Of a stretch of DNA of 64,000 bases, positions 17,267 through 22,858 are shown piece by piece. The position numbers and the translations under genes were made by a program. The notes under the pieces are model-generated. The model was not told the origin of the DNA. It did not search any database and worked only from the letters and a program-made list of their open reading frames with translations. The stretch is from an uncultured Anaeroplasmataceae bacterium (GTDB taxonomy: Bacteria > Bacillota_I > Bacilli_A > Acholeplasmatales > Anaeroplasmataceae): the NCBI GenBank assembly GCA_944325695.1, contig CALVBA010000004.1, forward strand, positions 1 through 64,000, given 5' to 3'. Position 1 is the first letter of the stretch. The number at the start of each line of letters is the position of its first letter.

Positions 17267-19144
17267 ATGTATGATTTAGAATTTATTTTAAATAAAATTG
17301 ATGAAAACTCAGTTGATAAAAAAGTTTTGGGTTCGGAAGATTTATTTTTAGTTATGTATGAACTAGAAGATAGTATTTTAAAAGAAGTATTAGATATTTA
17401 TGATATTGATGAGGATTTTGTTTATGCGATGTATAACGATTTATTAATCTTTCGAAAATTTTATGCCAAATATACAAAAGAGTTATTATATATAATTGAT
17501 GATGCGAAAAAGATTGCAAAATCTAAAGGTGAAGAGGTTTTAGAAATTCATTTGATTTATAGTATTATTCAATCACCTGATACTATTGCTTGTCATTTTT
17601 TAAAGAGAATGTATCTTGACTTAGAAGACTTATTAGATGTTTTATATGAAATTAAATTTGATGAAAATAATGATTTAGTTAATTTAACAAAATTAGCAAA
17701 GAAAAATGAGTTAGCTAAATACATTGATTTTAATAATTATTTAGAGCGAATTAAAGTAACATTAAATAAGAAGATAAAAAATAATCCCCTTTTAATTGGG
17801 GATGCTGGGGTTGGGAAAACGGCTATAGTTGAAGGTTTAGCAATGCTTTTTAGTTTAGAAGATGATAAAGAAGAAATCTATGCTTTGGAATTAGCTAAAT
17901 TAGTTGCTAATACAAAATATCGTGGTGATTTTGAAGCTAAAGTGTTAGATATTGTCGAATTTATCAAAAATGATCGAAATAGGATATTATTTATTGATGA
18001 AATCCATAATCTTTTAGGTTGCGGAAAAACAGATGGGTCACTTGATGCGGCTAATATTTTAAAGCCAATGCTAGCACGCGATGGTTTTAAATGTATTGGA
18101 GCCACTACAATTGAAGAATACTTAACATATATTAAAAAAGATAAAGCACTCATGCGACGGTTTGAAGTTATTTATATTATTGAACCAACAGAAACGCAAA
18201 CATTACAAATTCTAACGGGAATTAAAGATGATTTTGAAACTTTCTATAATATCTCAATTAATGATGAGATTTTAGAATATATTGTTAGTCAAGCAACCTT
18301 TTTAAACCATGATTTACGTTTTCCAGATAAGGCAATAGATTTATTAGATGAGAGTTTAAGTTTAGCCAAAAGAAATGGATATTTAGCTAAAAATCATGTT
18401 GATTTAGCAATAGACTATATTCAAGGTACTAAAAAGGGGTTAGTTTTTAATGATCTTTTTTATAAATATGTATTGAATTATGAATTTCAAATTAAGCGAA
18501 AAACACTTTTAAATATTTTATATCAAGGTGATAAACCTAATAATTTAATTGTTGATTTAGAACATAGTTTTGGAATTAATCACTCACATGTTTTGGTAAT
18601 TGATTTAAATGATTATACTAATCAAGATTTATCCAGTTTAATTGGAAGTGCTAAGGGATATGTCGGATATGATGATGGTGGTTTAGTTACGAAACATTTA
18701 GCAAAATATAATAAAGGAATTATATGTTTTCGTAATTATGATTTGGCTTGTTTTACAATTAAAAATTTTGTTGATAAATTATTAAGCGGAATATCTTTTT
18801 ATGATAACTTAGGAAATTATATTAATCCAGAAAATTACATTTTTATCTGTGGCATAAAAAATAGTTATGAAACTAGTAGTGTTGGATTTGTAAATAAGTT
18901 AAAAAAGGTAGAAAAAACAATTTTTGATGAGATTATAACAGACTACAACGAAGAACTTGAAAATCCTTATTTAAAGCGATTAAAAGACTTAGGTTTTGAA
19001 ATTATTACAACGCTAACAGATGAAATTATAGAAAAATATAGTGTCGAAATTCTATCCTATTTTAAAACATCTTGTAAAGGCAAATATGAAATTAGATTAG
19101 ACGAGTTAGAAAATGTAGTGGTTATTAATTTAAAAAGCTATTAA
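17267..19144 (+). CDS. Clp/Hsp100-like AAA+ ATPase with a degenerate second ATPase module
   Basis: A 625-residue relative of ClpC/ClpB (usually 810-860). A Clp_N-like helical domain (about 70-130) precedes a complete first AAA+ module: Walker A GDAGVGKT (178-185), the pore-loop region TKYRGDFEAKV, Walker B ILFIDE (240-245), GATTIEEY and the arginine-finger segment MRRFE. The second half aligns by eye with D2, keeping LIGSAKGYVGYDDGG (458-472) and the final N (531), but Walker A is missing and Walker B has become GIICFRNYDLA (484-494). D2 should therefore be unable to bind or hydrolyse ATP. No M-domain is visible. GGGGG precedes the ATG. Confidence 0.85.
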   Translation: MYDLEFILNKIDENSVDKKVLGSEDLFLVMYELEDSILKEVLDIYDIDEDFVYAMYNDLLIFRKFYAKYTKELLYIIDDAKKIAKSKGEEVLEIHLIYSIIQSPDTIACHFLKRMYLDLEDLLDVLYEIKFDENNDLVNLTKLAKKNELAKYIDFNNYLERIKVTLNKKIKNNPLLIGDAGVGKTAIVEGLAMLFSLEDDKEEIYALELAKLVANTKYRGDFEAKVLDIVEFIKNDRNRILFIDEIHNLLGCGKTDGSLDAANILKPMLARDGFKCIGATTIEEYLTYIKKDKALMRRFEVIYIIEPTETQTLQILTGIKDDFETFYNISINDEILEYIVSQATFLNHDLRFPDKAIDLLDESLSLAKRNGYLAKNHVDLAIDYIQGTKKGLVFNDLFYKYVLNYEFQIKRKTLLNILYQGDKPNNLIVDLEHSFGINHSHVLVIDLNDYTNQDLSSLIGSAKGYVGYDDGGLVTKHLAKYNKGIICFRNYDLACFTIKNFVDKLLSGISFYDNLGNYINPENYIFICGIKNSYETSSVGFVNKLKKVEKTIFDEIITDYNEELENPYLKRLKDLGFEIITTLTDEIIEKYSVEILSYFKTSCKGKYEIRLDELENVVVINLKSY

Positions 19145-19201: not shown

Positions 19202-19975
19202 ATGTTCGAACAAATCGTGAATTTTTTAGAGCAAAACGAAATTGTCAAAATGCTTTTAGACGGGTATTTTGTCTTATTAATCGTTATTGTATTCTTAAGA
19301 TTTGTCTTCAAAAATAAAAAAATTGTTACAATATCTTTATCAGTGATTATTTTTCTTTTACTAACTTTTTTTGTTAATAAAATTGGATTAGTTGCCTCTA
19401 GTTTTCTTTATAATGTGGTTATTAGATATCTACCAATTACTTTAATTATTATTTTTGCTCCAGAAATGCGTGATTCGATTATGAGTATTTATCGTCATGA
19501 GTCACAGACTAAAGCTAAAAATTTAAACCCATCTCAAGCAGCTAAAAATGCTATTGCTGATGCTTGTTTTGAATTATCAATGAAACGTGAAGGGGCATTG
19601 ATTACTATTGAATATCACAACTCTTTAGATCAATATGCAGAACATGCGGTTATTTTAAATAGTGAAATTACGAAAGAACTTTTAATGACTATTTTCTTTC
19701 CACCTTCACCATTACATGATGGGGCAGTTATTATTAAAGGTAATAAAATTCGTTGTGCCGGAGCTTATTACCGTTTATCAAGTAGTATTGCTGAAAAAGA
19801 TAAAACGATGGGGTCACGTCATCGCGCTGCGAAAGGAATTAGTGAAATTACCGACTCAGTAACAATTGTAGTAAGTGAAGAGACGGGAAATATTAATATT
19901 GCCGAAGGTGGCGGATTAATCCCGATTGCCGATAAGCAACATTTATTAGATTATTTAGATATTTTAATAAAATAG
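19202..19975 (+). CDS. cdaA: Diadenylate cyclase CdaA
   Basis: Makes c-di-AMP from two ATP at the membrane. Three transmembrane helices (about 21-36, 42-57 and 64-86) precede the DAC domain, with DGA (173-175, in PLHDGAVIIKG) and RHR (206-208, in GSRHRAAKGISE). Its length of 257 residues is close to the 273 of B. subtilis CdaA. GGAGTGATG precedes the ATG, and a TATAAT at 19162-19167 is a possible -10. In most Firmicutes cdaR and glmM follow; here they are replaced by a 57-residue membrane peptide and a degenerate-GGDEF protein, then ispD and ispF. Confidence 0.97.
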   Translation: MFEQIVNFLEQNEIVKMLLDGYFVLLIVIVFLRFVFKNKKIVTISLSVIIFLLLTFFVNKIGLVASSFLYNVVIRYLPITLIIIFAPEMRDSIMSIYRHESQTKAKNLNPSQAAKNAIADACFELSMKREGALITIEYHNSLDQYAEHAVILNSEITKELLMTIFFPPSPLHDGAVIIKGNKIRCAGAYYRLSSSIAEKDKTMGSRHRAAKGISEITDSVTIVVSEETGNINIAEGGGLIPIADKQHLLDYLDILIK

Positions 19976-19985
19976 GAGTGATACT

Positions 19986-20159
19986 ATGAAGATACTTAAA
20001 GGAATAATTAGTTTTTTATTTGATCCATTTCGTTTTTTTTGCGTTAATACACAATCGAAATCAGTATCCCAAATTTGTAGGCCTCTTTTTTATTATTTAC
20101 TAAGTTTAGTAGTTGCCTGTTTGATTATTTATTTTTTCTATCATATAAGGGTTGCTTAA
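19986..20159 (+). CDS. Small membrane protein of 57 residues between cdaA and the GGDEF-like gene
   Basis: A short frame starting MKILKGIISFLFDPFRFF and ending with one membrane helix (about residues 34-52, FYYLLSLVVACLIIYFF) and HIRVA. Translation is supported by GGAGTGAT five bases before the ATG, a 10-base gap after cdaA and a 1-base gap before the next gene. The N-terminal part could be an amphipathic membrane-surface helix. I do not recognise it. It occupies the place of cdaR, so a role in setting CdaA activity is a guess from position alone. Confidence 0.7.
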   Translation: MKILKGIISFLFDPFRFFCVNTQSKSVSQICRPLFYYLLSLVVACLIIYFFYHIRVA

Positions 20160-20160
20160 T

Positions 20161-21588
20161 ATGAATTATTTATTTTTTATCTGGACGATTATCGTTTTAT
20201 TAAACATTTTTAATATTAGGAAAGATCATTTTATTTTTAAAATGATTTTTTCCATTTTTAATTTATTACTTGCATTTATCTTTTATCTTTTGCAATATAA
20301 TTTTCATATTTTATTAGTTTATTTAATTGTCACAGCTTGCTTATTTTGCTTATCTTTTGTGAAATCATATTTTTTATTTCATAAAATTATTCATTCACAG
20401 TCGTATCAAAAAAATCAATGTGTTTATATTGTAAATCATTTTAAAAAAATCGTGATGTATCAAGATAATGGTATTTTTAAACATCAGAAAAATAATAAAT
20501 CGTTTTGGGATTTATTTCACCAAAACTATAAAATTTTAAGTTTAGATAATAATAGTTGTGAAATGACACATTTTAAACGTTTAATTACTAATTTATTTAG
20601 CGTTGATTATAGTAAGGAGCATCTTATTGTTGTCGAAGATAGTCGCCTAAATATAAAAACTTTAGTCTTAAATATTACTCCTATTAAAATATTTAATAAA
20701 AATGTATATCAAATGTTAATATTAAGAGAAATGAATAAAAAAAATACTAATGATTTTAGTAATGAGTTTTTTTATCTTTTAAATAATAATAAACAAGGTA
20801 TTTTTGTTATGAATTTAGAAGAAAAAGAAGTTTTTTTAAATCCTGCTTTAAAAACTATATTACATGAATATAAGGATACAATTAGTTTAGATGATTTTTA
20901 TTACAAATTTGAAAGTAATGATAGTTTAGTTTTAAAGAAACAAATTAATTTATTAAATGTTAAAAATCCAAATTTTAATATGACATGTCGAATTAAGGTA
21001 TTAGAAAATTATTCTTTTTTTGATATAACAGGAACTCGTCTTTTTAATGATGAATATAATTTTAATGTTATATGTTATATAGATTATAAAGATGGTTTTT
21101 TCTATCCTAAAACAACATATCAAATATTAAATAATTTGCAAGGGTTAGATGCTTTTATTAATTATGTTGAATATTTAAAAGTTAAGAAGTCCTTTTTTAT
21201 GGTATGTCTATTCAGACTTCATAAAATTGATCAAATTAATGAAACATATTCATATGAAGTAGGAAATATGGTTATCGCTGATTTCCTAAAGCGAATGAAT
21301 GATAATTTAGAAAGTCAAAATTCTAAGATGTTTCGTCTTCGCGGACTTGATTTTATTTATGTTGTTACAGATTTGCGTAAAACAGAAGTTTTAAAACAAA
21401 TGTTATTGCAACAAATTATCAATAAAGATATTGTTTATGCGAGTATGAAATTAAATGTTTATCCACGATTTGCGATTACAGATGGAATTTATAAGAATGC
21501 TCAAACAATTTTAGAAGAATGTTATGAGGCTTTAAATCAAGCTCTTTTTAAAGGTATATTATATCAATATTATAATGATTGTAGGTGA
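20161..21588 (+). CDS. Membrane protein with PAS-like and degenerate GGDEF domains
   Basis: A 475-residue protein with three membrane helices (about 3-18, 27-45 and 48-70), a middle region that may be PAS-like (about 200-290) and a C-terminal GGDEF-like domain (about 344-470). The GGDEF landmarks can be traced (FRLHKIDQINETYSYEVGNMVIADFLKRM) but the signature reads RGLDF (394-398), so cyclase activity is unlikely. The order membrane-PAS-degenerate GGDEF resembles GdpP, the c-di-AMP phosphodiesterase, but the DHH/DHHA1 catalytic part is absent. It lies in the cdaA operon. The ATG at 20161 is chosen for AAGGG upstream. Confidence 0.75.
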   Translation: MNYLFFIWTIIVLLNIFNIRKDHFIFKMIFSIFNLLLAFIFYLLQYNFHILLVYLIVTACLFCLSFVKSYFLFHKIIHSQSYQKNQCVYIVNHFKKIVMYQDNGIFKHQKNNKSFWDLFHQNYKILSLDNNSCEMTHFKRLITNLFSVDYSKEHLIVVEDSRLNIKTLVLNITPIKIFNKNVYQMLILREMNKKNTNDFSNEFFYLLNNNKQGIFVMNLEEKEVFLNPALKTILHEYKDTISLDDFYYKFESNDSLVLKKQINLLNVKNPNFNMTCRIKVLENYSFFDITGTRLFNDEYNFNVICYIDYKDGFFYPKTTYQILNNLQGLDAFINYVEYLKVKKSFFMVCLFRLHKIDQINETYSYEVGNMVIADFLKRMNDNLESQNSKMFRLRGLDFIYVVTDLRKTEVLKQMLLQQIINKDIVYASMKLNVYPRFAITDGIYKNAQTILEECYEALNQALFKGILYQYYNDCR

Positions 21589-21592
21589 AAAG

Positions 21593-22240
21593 ATGGTTAG
21601 TGCGGTTATTGTTGCTGCAGGAAAAGGAAGTCGTATGCAACTTTCTTATAATAAAATGTTTATTAAATTAGAGGAAAAAGCAATTTTATTACATACAATT
21701 GAAAAATTTCAAGGATTAGTTGACGAAATTATCGTCGTATGTCATAAAGATGAGATGAATGATGTTAAAAAATTAGTTTCTAATGATATTGTTTTAGTAT
21801 CTGGTGGAGATACTCGCATGGAAAGTGTTTATAATGGTCTACAAAAAGCTCGTTATAATGATGTTTTAGTTCATGACGGAGCTAGATGTAACATTAAACA
21901 AGAAGATATAAATAAAGTAATTAATGGCATTAAAACGTCGGAAGCATGTGTTTTGGCGACAAAAGTTAAAGATACCATTAAAATATATGAAAATGGCTTT
22001 TTAAAGACTTTACCTCGTGATAATTTAATTGCTGTACAAACGCCACAAGCAGTTAAAAAGAATCTTTTTATCCCGCTTATTAAAAAAGCCATCTTAGATA
22101 AATTAAATGCATTTGATGAGATGCAGATTATTGAAAAATACAGCAATTTAAAAATTGAAGTTATTCTTGGTAGTGACACTAATATAAAAGTAACAACATT
22201 AGAAGATTTAGACTATTTATCTTTTTTAAGGAGGAAATAA
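21593..22240 (+). CDS. ispD: 2-C-methyl-D-erythritol 4-phosphate cytidylyltransferase IspD
   Basis: Third step of the MEP isoprenoid pathway, adding CMP to MEP. The nucleotide-binding start VIVAAGKGSRM, VLVHDGARCNI and AVQTPQA are IspD signatures, and 215 residues is somewhat short of the usual 230. The ATG at 21593 follows AGGTGA by four bases; upstream in-frame codons overlap the previous gene and that ribosome-binding site. It is followed by ispF after one base, and is co-transcribed with cdaA. Confidence 0.95.
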   Translation: MVSAVIVAAGKGSRMQLSYNKMFIKLEEKAILLHTIEKFQGLVDEIIVVCHKDEMNDVKKLVSNDIVLVSGGDTRMESVYNGLQKARYNDVLVHDGARCNIKQEDINKVINGIKTSEACVLATKVKDTIKIYENGFLKTLPRDNLIAVQTPQAVKKNLFIPLIKKAILDKLNAFDEMQIIEKYSNLKIEVILGSDTNIKVTTLEDLDYLSFLRRK

Positions 22241-22241
22241 A

Positions 22242-22733
22242 ATGCGAATTGGACATTCATGGGATATTCATCGTTTAGTAGAAGGACGAAAACTTATTTT
22301 GGGTGGGGTAGAGATTCCACATGAAGTTGGTCTTTTGGGTCATAGTGATGCAGATTGTTTGTTACATTCGATTGCTGAAGCATTGTTGGGGAGCTTAGCA
22401 TTGGGTGATTTAGGCGCAATTTTTCCTGATACAGATATGGCAAATAAAGATTTAGATTCAAGCTTTATTTTAAGAAAATGCTATCAAATGGTTTTGGAAA
22501 AAGGATATTATATTTGTAATATTGATTCAACTATTTACGCTGAAAAACCTAAAATGCGTCCTTTTGTTGATTATATTAGAAAAAGCATTAGTGAAATTTT
22601 ACAACTAGATATTGACAAGATTTCAGTTAAAGCGACAACGCATGAGAAATTAGGCCCTATCGGCGAAAAAAAGGCTATTGCTTGTGAAACGGTCGTTTTA
22701 GTTGATAAAAAGTCAAATTTGGTTCTTTTATAG
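22242..22733 (+). CDS. ispF: 2-C-methyl-D-erythritol 2,4-cyclodiphosphate synthase IspF
   Basis: Cyclises CDP-ME 2-phosphate to MEcPP with release of CMP, using Zn2+ in a trimer. The opening GHSWDIHRL carries the zinc aspartate and histidine of the DxH motif, followed by GHSDADCLLHSIAEALLGSLALGDLGAIFPDTD and the C-terminal KATTHEKLGPIGEKKAI. The length is normal (163 residues). AAGGAGGAAATAAA precedes the ATG. It is the last gene of the cdaA operon, ending at the terminator near 22.85 kb. Confidence 0.97.
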   Translation: MRIGHSWDIHRLVEGRKLILGGVEIPHEVGLLGHSDADCLLHSIAEALLGSLALGDLGAIFPDTDMANKDLDSSFILRKCYQMVLEKGYYICNIDSTIYAEKPKMRPFVDYIRKSISEILQLDIDKISVKATTHEKLGPIGEKKAIACETVVLVDKKSNLVLL

Positions 22734-22824: not shown

Positions 22825-22858
22825 AAATAAGGCTTAAAATAGCCTTATTTCTTTTTTT
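22825..22858. terminator. Terminator after ispF, shared with the CBS gene
   Basis: A perfect 10-bp stem AAATAAGGCT/AGCCTTATTT with loop TAAAAT, then CTTTTTTT. A-tracts upstream also let it work for the opposing CBS gene. The rest of the 188-base gap shows no small gene or RNA that I can support. Confidence 0.88.

Follow-up and report, generated by a model that had tools for sequence, protein, structure and literature searches.

What accompanies a cyclic diadenosine monophosphate (c-di-AMP) synthase whose operon lacks the two genes that usually follow it? The question is raised by the cdaA locus in a 64,000-nucleotide stretch of DNA from an uncultured Anaeroplasmataceae bacterium of the order Acholeplasmatales (contig CALVBA010000004.1, positions 1 to 64,000; hereafter the window), which belongs to a 1.34 Mb assembly that is 97% complete. 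In the cdaA-cdaR-glmM operon of Firmicutes, CdaR and GlmM regulate CdaA; the N-terminal transmembrane (TM) region of the synthase is the reported site of its contact with CdaR, and how CdaR exerts its control is stated as unclear (PMC8573169). Here the gene directly behind cdaA encodes a 57-residue membrane peptide. Our best explanation, to which we give an even chance of being right, is that this peptide is a membrane partner of CdaA, plausibly a CdaR stripped down to a juxtamembrane helix and a TM anchor.

The cdaA operon of the Acholeplasmatales

All five open reading frames lie on the plus strand in the order cdaA, membrane peptide, GG (our name for a membrane PAS-PAS-degenerate-GGDEF protein), ispD and ispF, separated by 10, 1, 4 and 1 nucleotides, and in this the earlier note on the window was correct.

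19202..19975, plus strand: cdaA, membrane diadenylate cyclase (Pfam DAC, 125 bits)
19974..19979, plus strand: AGGAGT, a Shine-Dalgarno-like site for the peptide gene, read from the sequence and overlapping the cdaA stop codon
19986..20159, plus strand: gene for the 57-residue membrane peptide, candidate CdaA partner (order-wide adjacency to cdaA, dN/dS, comparison with CdaR N-termini)
20161..21588, plus strand: gene for the GG protein (GGDEF, 30 bits in the window protein; Pfam GGDEF and PAS in relatives; motif counts; order-wide conservation)
21593..22240, plus strand: ispD (IspD, 173 bits; TIGR00453, 188 bits, above cut-off)
22242..22733, plus strand: ispF (YgbB/IspF, 206 bits; TIGR00151, 199 bits, above cut-off)

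The synthase itself is of the ordinary membrane type. It has intact DGA and RHR motifs, a DAC domain and three N-terminal hydrophobic segments that are predicted to span the membrane, and it scores 184 bits against the NCBIfam CdaA model TIGR00159, just below the cut-off of 188.8. Diadenylate cyclases of the CdaM and CdaS types share the DAC domain, but their NCBIfam models score the window protein far under their cut-offs, and its three predicted TM helices are those of the CdaA type. No other DAC gene occurs in the window genome, and a single one is found in 139 of the 160 Acholeplasmatales genomes that make up our sample of the order.

The arrangement behind cdaA is conserved. In the window's own family the five-gene order is kept in all seven genera. 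Across the order, a genome-wide profile search placed the peptide next to cdaA in every genome in which both were detected (108/108), and direct reading found it in the remaining four cdaA-bearing genomes outside the phytoplasmas (G012, G013, G018 and G021), so that, wherever cdaA was detected outside the phytoplasmas, the peptide stands behind it (112 of 112 genomes), at most about 110 and typically 7-15 nucleotides downstream. An apparent absence in G025 (L089) arose because the assembled cdaA has a broken frame; the peptide does occur there. Away from cdaA, the profile search returned marginal matches to hydrophobic stretches only, mostly within longer proteins, and no comparable full-length match in any genome of the order. 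GG was detected in 117 of the 160 genomes and adjoins cdaA in 107 of 110. The cdaA-peptide-GG arrangement is far beyond chance, and the operon is the standard cdaA operon of the Acholeplasmatales, a new version of the cdaA operon with a minimal candidate partner.

The regulators of the Firmicutes operon are missing. The YbbR domain that defines CdaR (PF07949) was found in none of the 160 genomes; the same model matches 117 of the 395 genomes of our wider sample of the class. A relocated cdaR was rejected. In the window genome GlmM was not found, the best phosphohexomutase scoring 95 bits against a cut-off of 447.55. The earlier note had seen both genes replaced at the locus, and neither of the observations that it had named as counting against it, a cdaR elsewhere or the loss of the two intervening genes in relatives, was made, since cdaR is missing from all 160 genomes and the genes are conserved at cdaA. 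Its description of an operon rebuilt by replacement is half right: glmM appears to be lost, with no exchange, and the peptide, instead of replacing cdaR, may be what cdaR was reduced to.

The membrane peptide

Members of the peptide family are 50-70 residues long and share one layout, in which a hydrophobic N-terminal helix with an invariant proline is followed by a basic linker and a single C-terminal TM segment (residues 34-52 in the window). The positive charges ahead of the TM segment suggest that the N-terminus lies inside the cell. No Pfam, NCBIfam or other database family matches the peptide. Finite pairwise comparisons between close relatives mostly gave ratios of nonsynonymous to synonymous substitution (dN/dS) of 0.03-0.38, a constraint that is clearly purifying and generally weaker than that on CdaA. 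The reading frame is a genuine gene. Its product is a strong candidate for a partner of CdaA, which it may bind and regulate.

The GG protein is not a truncated GdpP

The earlier note had taken the third protein for a GdpP without its DHH/DHHA1 part. Like GdpP, a c-di-AMP phosphodiesterase built from TM, PAS, GGDEF and DHH/DHHA1 parts, GG combines TM, PAS and degenerate GGDEF regions, but it has two PAS domains, no DHH/DHHA1 and no match to the GdpP-type GGDEF model. A complete GdpP of 815 residues (GGDEF_GdpP plus DHH) is encoded on contig C2 of the window genome, and GdpP was found in 53 of 55 members of the family; with a separate, complete enzyme present, the phosphodiesterase has been neither lost nor split. 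The DHH domain has no match in GG, and the DHH genes of the window genome (G000) lie elsewhere; PF24898, the GdpP-type GGDEF model, matches in that genome only loci other than GG; and PF21370, the GdpP PAS model, matches one of 28 GG relatives, with an E value of 0.05. We therefore rejected the identification, as a true GdpP lies elsewhere and GG fails every GdpP-defining feature tested. The GdpP open frames of the window's family (G000:C2:65522-66475) run to about 770-854 codons, longer than the Bacillus GdpP of roughly 660 residues.

GG and its relatives have three predicted TM helices along with two PAS domains and a GGDEF domain. Membership in the GGDEF fold is supported by matches to PF00990 in 27 of 28 relatives and by matches to GGDEF structures in the PDB down to an E value of 1.5e-11. 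By profile the fold is that of the PAS-sensor diguanylate cyclases (3icl, DosC, PleD), but such cyclases carry an acidic third motif residue and metal-binding aspartates, and GG does not conform. SG[L/I]xF stands in place of GG[D/E]EF; none of the 28 sequences has an acidic third residue (it is L, I, S, V, P or T), and the DxD region of the same 28 is mostly non-acidic, the metal-binding aspartates being mostly lost. At the position of the FKxIN asparagine, all 28 have asparagine. Judged by these residues the domain is catalytically dead, and it could still bind nucleotide. An AlphaFold model of GG from the single sequence had a predicted local distance difference test (pLDDT) score of 39.5 and was unusable. 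By the open reading frame call, GG has 478 codons, with a TTG at 20152 as an alternative upstream start.

Does GG then belong to cdaA at all? Three families (f3, f5 and f23) and one f19 genome have it at ispDF with no cdaA alongside; in f3 the peptide remains with cdaA, while GG, ispDF and a gene for a 5-formyltetrahydrofolate cyclo-ligase-like protein (5-FCL, an identity that we assigned from sequence) are on another contig. GG might be part of a methylerythritol phosphate (MEP) and one-carbon cluster of 5-FCL, ispD and ispF, or a free-standing sensor, its proximity to cdaA reflecting the clustering of housekeeping genes. The survival of the GG-(5-FCL)-ispD-ispF link where cdaA is elsewhere speaks for this, as does the continuation of the surrounding order into YutD-like and NifU-like housekeeping genes, but the proximity of cdaA and GG is kept across several families with differing inserted genes, and we judge the proposal to fall somewhat short of an even chance. 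In most relatives the 5-FCL gene lies between GG and ispD; the window lacks it at 21588-21593.

Because GG also occurs with ispDF where cdaA is absent, its link to CdaA is the weaker one. The earlier note had offered both unfamiliar proteins as CdaA regulators or c-di-AMP sensors; this stands well for the peptide, and for GG such a role is possible but weaker.

Is the peptide a reduced CdaR?

Compared with the Firmicutes operon (PMC8573169), the present one has the same membrane type of CdaA and, directly behind cdaA, a gene for a single-pass membrane protein with the same predicted topology, N-terminus inside and one TM segment. The differences are that CdaR has 380-480 residues and the peptide about 57, that YbbR domains are missing from the whole order, that the window genome yielded no glmM, and that GG and ispDF come after the peptide gene. 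By the YbbR domain the peptide is no CdaR; its gene holds the position of cdaR: in all control loci read from CdaR-bearing families of the class, cdaR is directly behind cdaA. Single weak YbbR matches were also seen in f6 and f13, one in each.

The N-termini of the CdaR proteins of families f14 and f15 resemble the peptide in layout, with a proline 25-28 residues ahead of the TM segment, a basic stretch and then the TM segment; the invariant proline of the peptide lies 19-26 residues ahead of its own. In a profile comparison, peptides of the Acholeplasmataceae type matched these N-termini with a score of 26.8 over 52 columns (68% probability), above all 30 membrane controls, none of which aligned over at least 40 columns at such scores. 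When the peptide profile was searched against all open reading frames with hmmsearch, one CdaR came second among the weak hits (those with E values above 0.001), at an E value of 0.02, and other CdaRs lay deep in the noise. The profile similarity is suggestive. Taken together, position, predicted topology and profile comparison make it most attractive to derive the peptide from CdaR by reduction to the membrane anchor. That CdaR was cut down order-wide to a membrane anchor of 50-70 residues, which would still control CdaA by contact between TM segments, is a tentative proposal that we think rather more apt to be wrong than right.

Several observations weigh against the idea of a CdaA partner derived from CdaR. 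Apart from the proline and the hydrophobic pattern, the peptide sequence is poorly conserved, and the CdaR N-termini of f17, f22, f10 and f20 do not have the proline motif. The signal for a CdaR origin is weak, with an E value of about 5e-5 for a single comparison: with all peptides against the f14 and f15 anchors the score is 22.5 over 43 columns and one of the 30 controls is higher, and a profile of the CdaA TM region comes near the best match, at 25.0 over 28 columns against 26.8. Related lineages that have GG and no CdaR have no such peptide. Finally, we take genus g18 (genome sizes 0.3-0.9 Mb) to be Phytoplasma; all 13 of its cdaA loci read are without peptide and without GG, and the profile search found no full-length peptide elsewhere in these genomes; CdaA can therefore exist without the peptide. 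The phytoplasma cdaA (L184-L193) often lies between P-type-ATPase-like and DegV-like genes.

The peptide might instead be no relic of CdaR but a small membrane protein that originated independently in the Acholeplasmatales and serves in the assembly or stability of CdaA. This would suit the lack of any matching database family, the absence of the peptide from the lineages nearest the order in gene content and a likeness to CdaR that is only suggestive; against it, the peptide holds the exact position of cdaR and has the predicted topology and the proline-linker-TM layout of the f14 and f15 anchors. We regard it as possible, and on balance doubtful.

GG as a possible substitute for CdaR

A third alternative assigns the part of CdaR to GG, as a membrane sensor that would regulate CdaA by membrane contacts; the peptide would then be an accessory. 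GG relatives occur in other families of the class, many of them near cdaA and ispDF too, and none of the other-family GG loci read (f7, f9, f16, f19, f23 and f24) carries the peptide. In f7, f9, f16, f19 and f24, a GG relative nevertheless follows cdaA with 0-2 genes between. The intervening gene is methylglyoxal-synthase-like in f7 and f19; in f16 and f24 (L149-L155) it encodes a protein of ~780 residues with an N-terminal FAD/NAD-binding motif, and the PAS-GGDEF protein beyond it is without TM segments. In f9 (L158-L160) the relative retains the TM and PAS parts and has lost the GGDEF domain, so that behind cdaA a TM-PAS part can occur by itself. Separately, an ankyrin-repeat protein gene precedes cdaA in f7, f9 and f19 (L147, L148, L158-L163), and upstream of it is a gene for a protein of ~1000 residues that matches a DEAD helicase weakly at best; this is another conserved setting of cdaA.

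The near-constant adjacency of GG and cdaA in the order favors such a role, as does the distribution in the class, where 115 of the 395 genomes have GG, 117 have YbbR and none has both. The CdaA tree allows a single switch, however, so this exclusivity counts as one event and is statistically weak, which lessens its value as independent support. Moreover, GG follows ispDF and not cdaA in f3, f5, f23 and one f19 genome, and no module of it is constant, the N-terminal TM part being absent from the f16 and f24 relatives and the GGDEF part from those of f9. We consider it unlikely that GG is the functional substitute. Least probable by far is that the peptide frame serves in translational coupling or as a leader and has no function as a protein. 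The frame is short and tightly spaced, with a stop that adjoins the GG start in the window, but it has its own Shine-Dalgarno-like site, purifying selection at the amino acid level and a constant TM segment, and is kept in f3 although GG no longer lies behind it.

Surroundings of the operon

The operon would end at a terminator-like element 3' of ispF:

22825..22850, plus strand: intrinsic terminator-like hairpin with a 10-bp stem and a T tail

The search that found it returned one such element against 0.9 expected by chance, yet at the expected place. An Rfam scan of the window found no c-di-AMP riboswitch and no other RNA element, and the count of promoter-like sites in the window was not above chance. 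Upstream, a gene for a 625-residue ClpC-like protein with two AAA modules (17267-19144) lies between cdaA and a divergent hflX; in most of the relatives read, the two genes diverge with nothing between them.

A proposed minimal partner for CdaA

Acholeplasma-type bacteria are wall-less. We propose that giving up peptidoglycan would have led to the loss of GlmM and of the extracytoplasmic YbbR domains of CdaR. What remained directly behind cdaA would be a single-pass peptide with a membrane-associated N-terminal helix, a basic cytoplasmic linker and one TM segment, which, like CdaR, may bind CdaA at its N-terminal TM region and set the oligomeric state or activity of the synthase, the wall-related inputs being gone. 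Descent of the peptide from the CdaR membrane anchor is held less firmly than its binding to CdaA. GG probably senses a signal or a nucleotide, and its target may be CdaA or the neighboring isoprenoid and folate genes. In the library searched, no paper joins Acholeplasma with c-di-AMP and CdaA.

If this proposal is true, the YbbR ectodomains are dispensable input domains, and the minimal regulator of CdaA is a single helix with a membrane-bound arm. A partner of fewer than 75 residues, present order-wide at every cdaA except those of phytoplasmas, would separate the membrane contact of CdaR from its ectodomains, and the peptide-CdaA pair would offer a minimal system for structure determination. 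The locus would also illustrate the organization of c-di-AMP control in bacteria that have shed the peptidoglycan branch (GlmM and YbbR), among them Acholeplasma laidlawii, which can be used in experiments.

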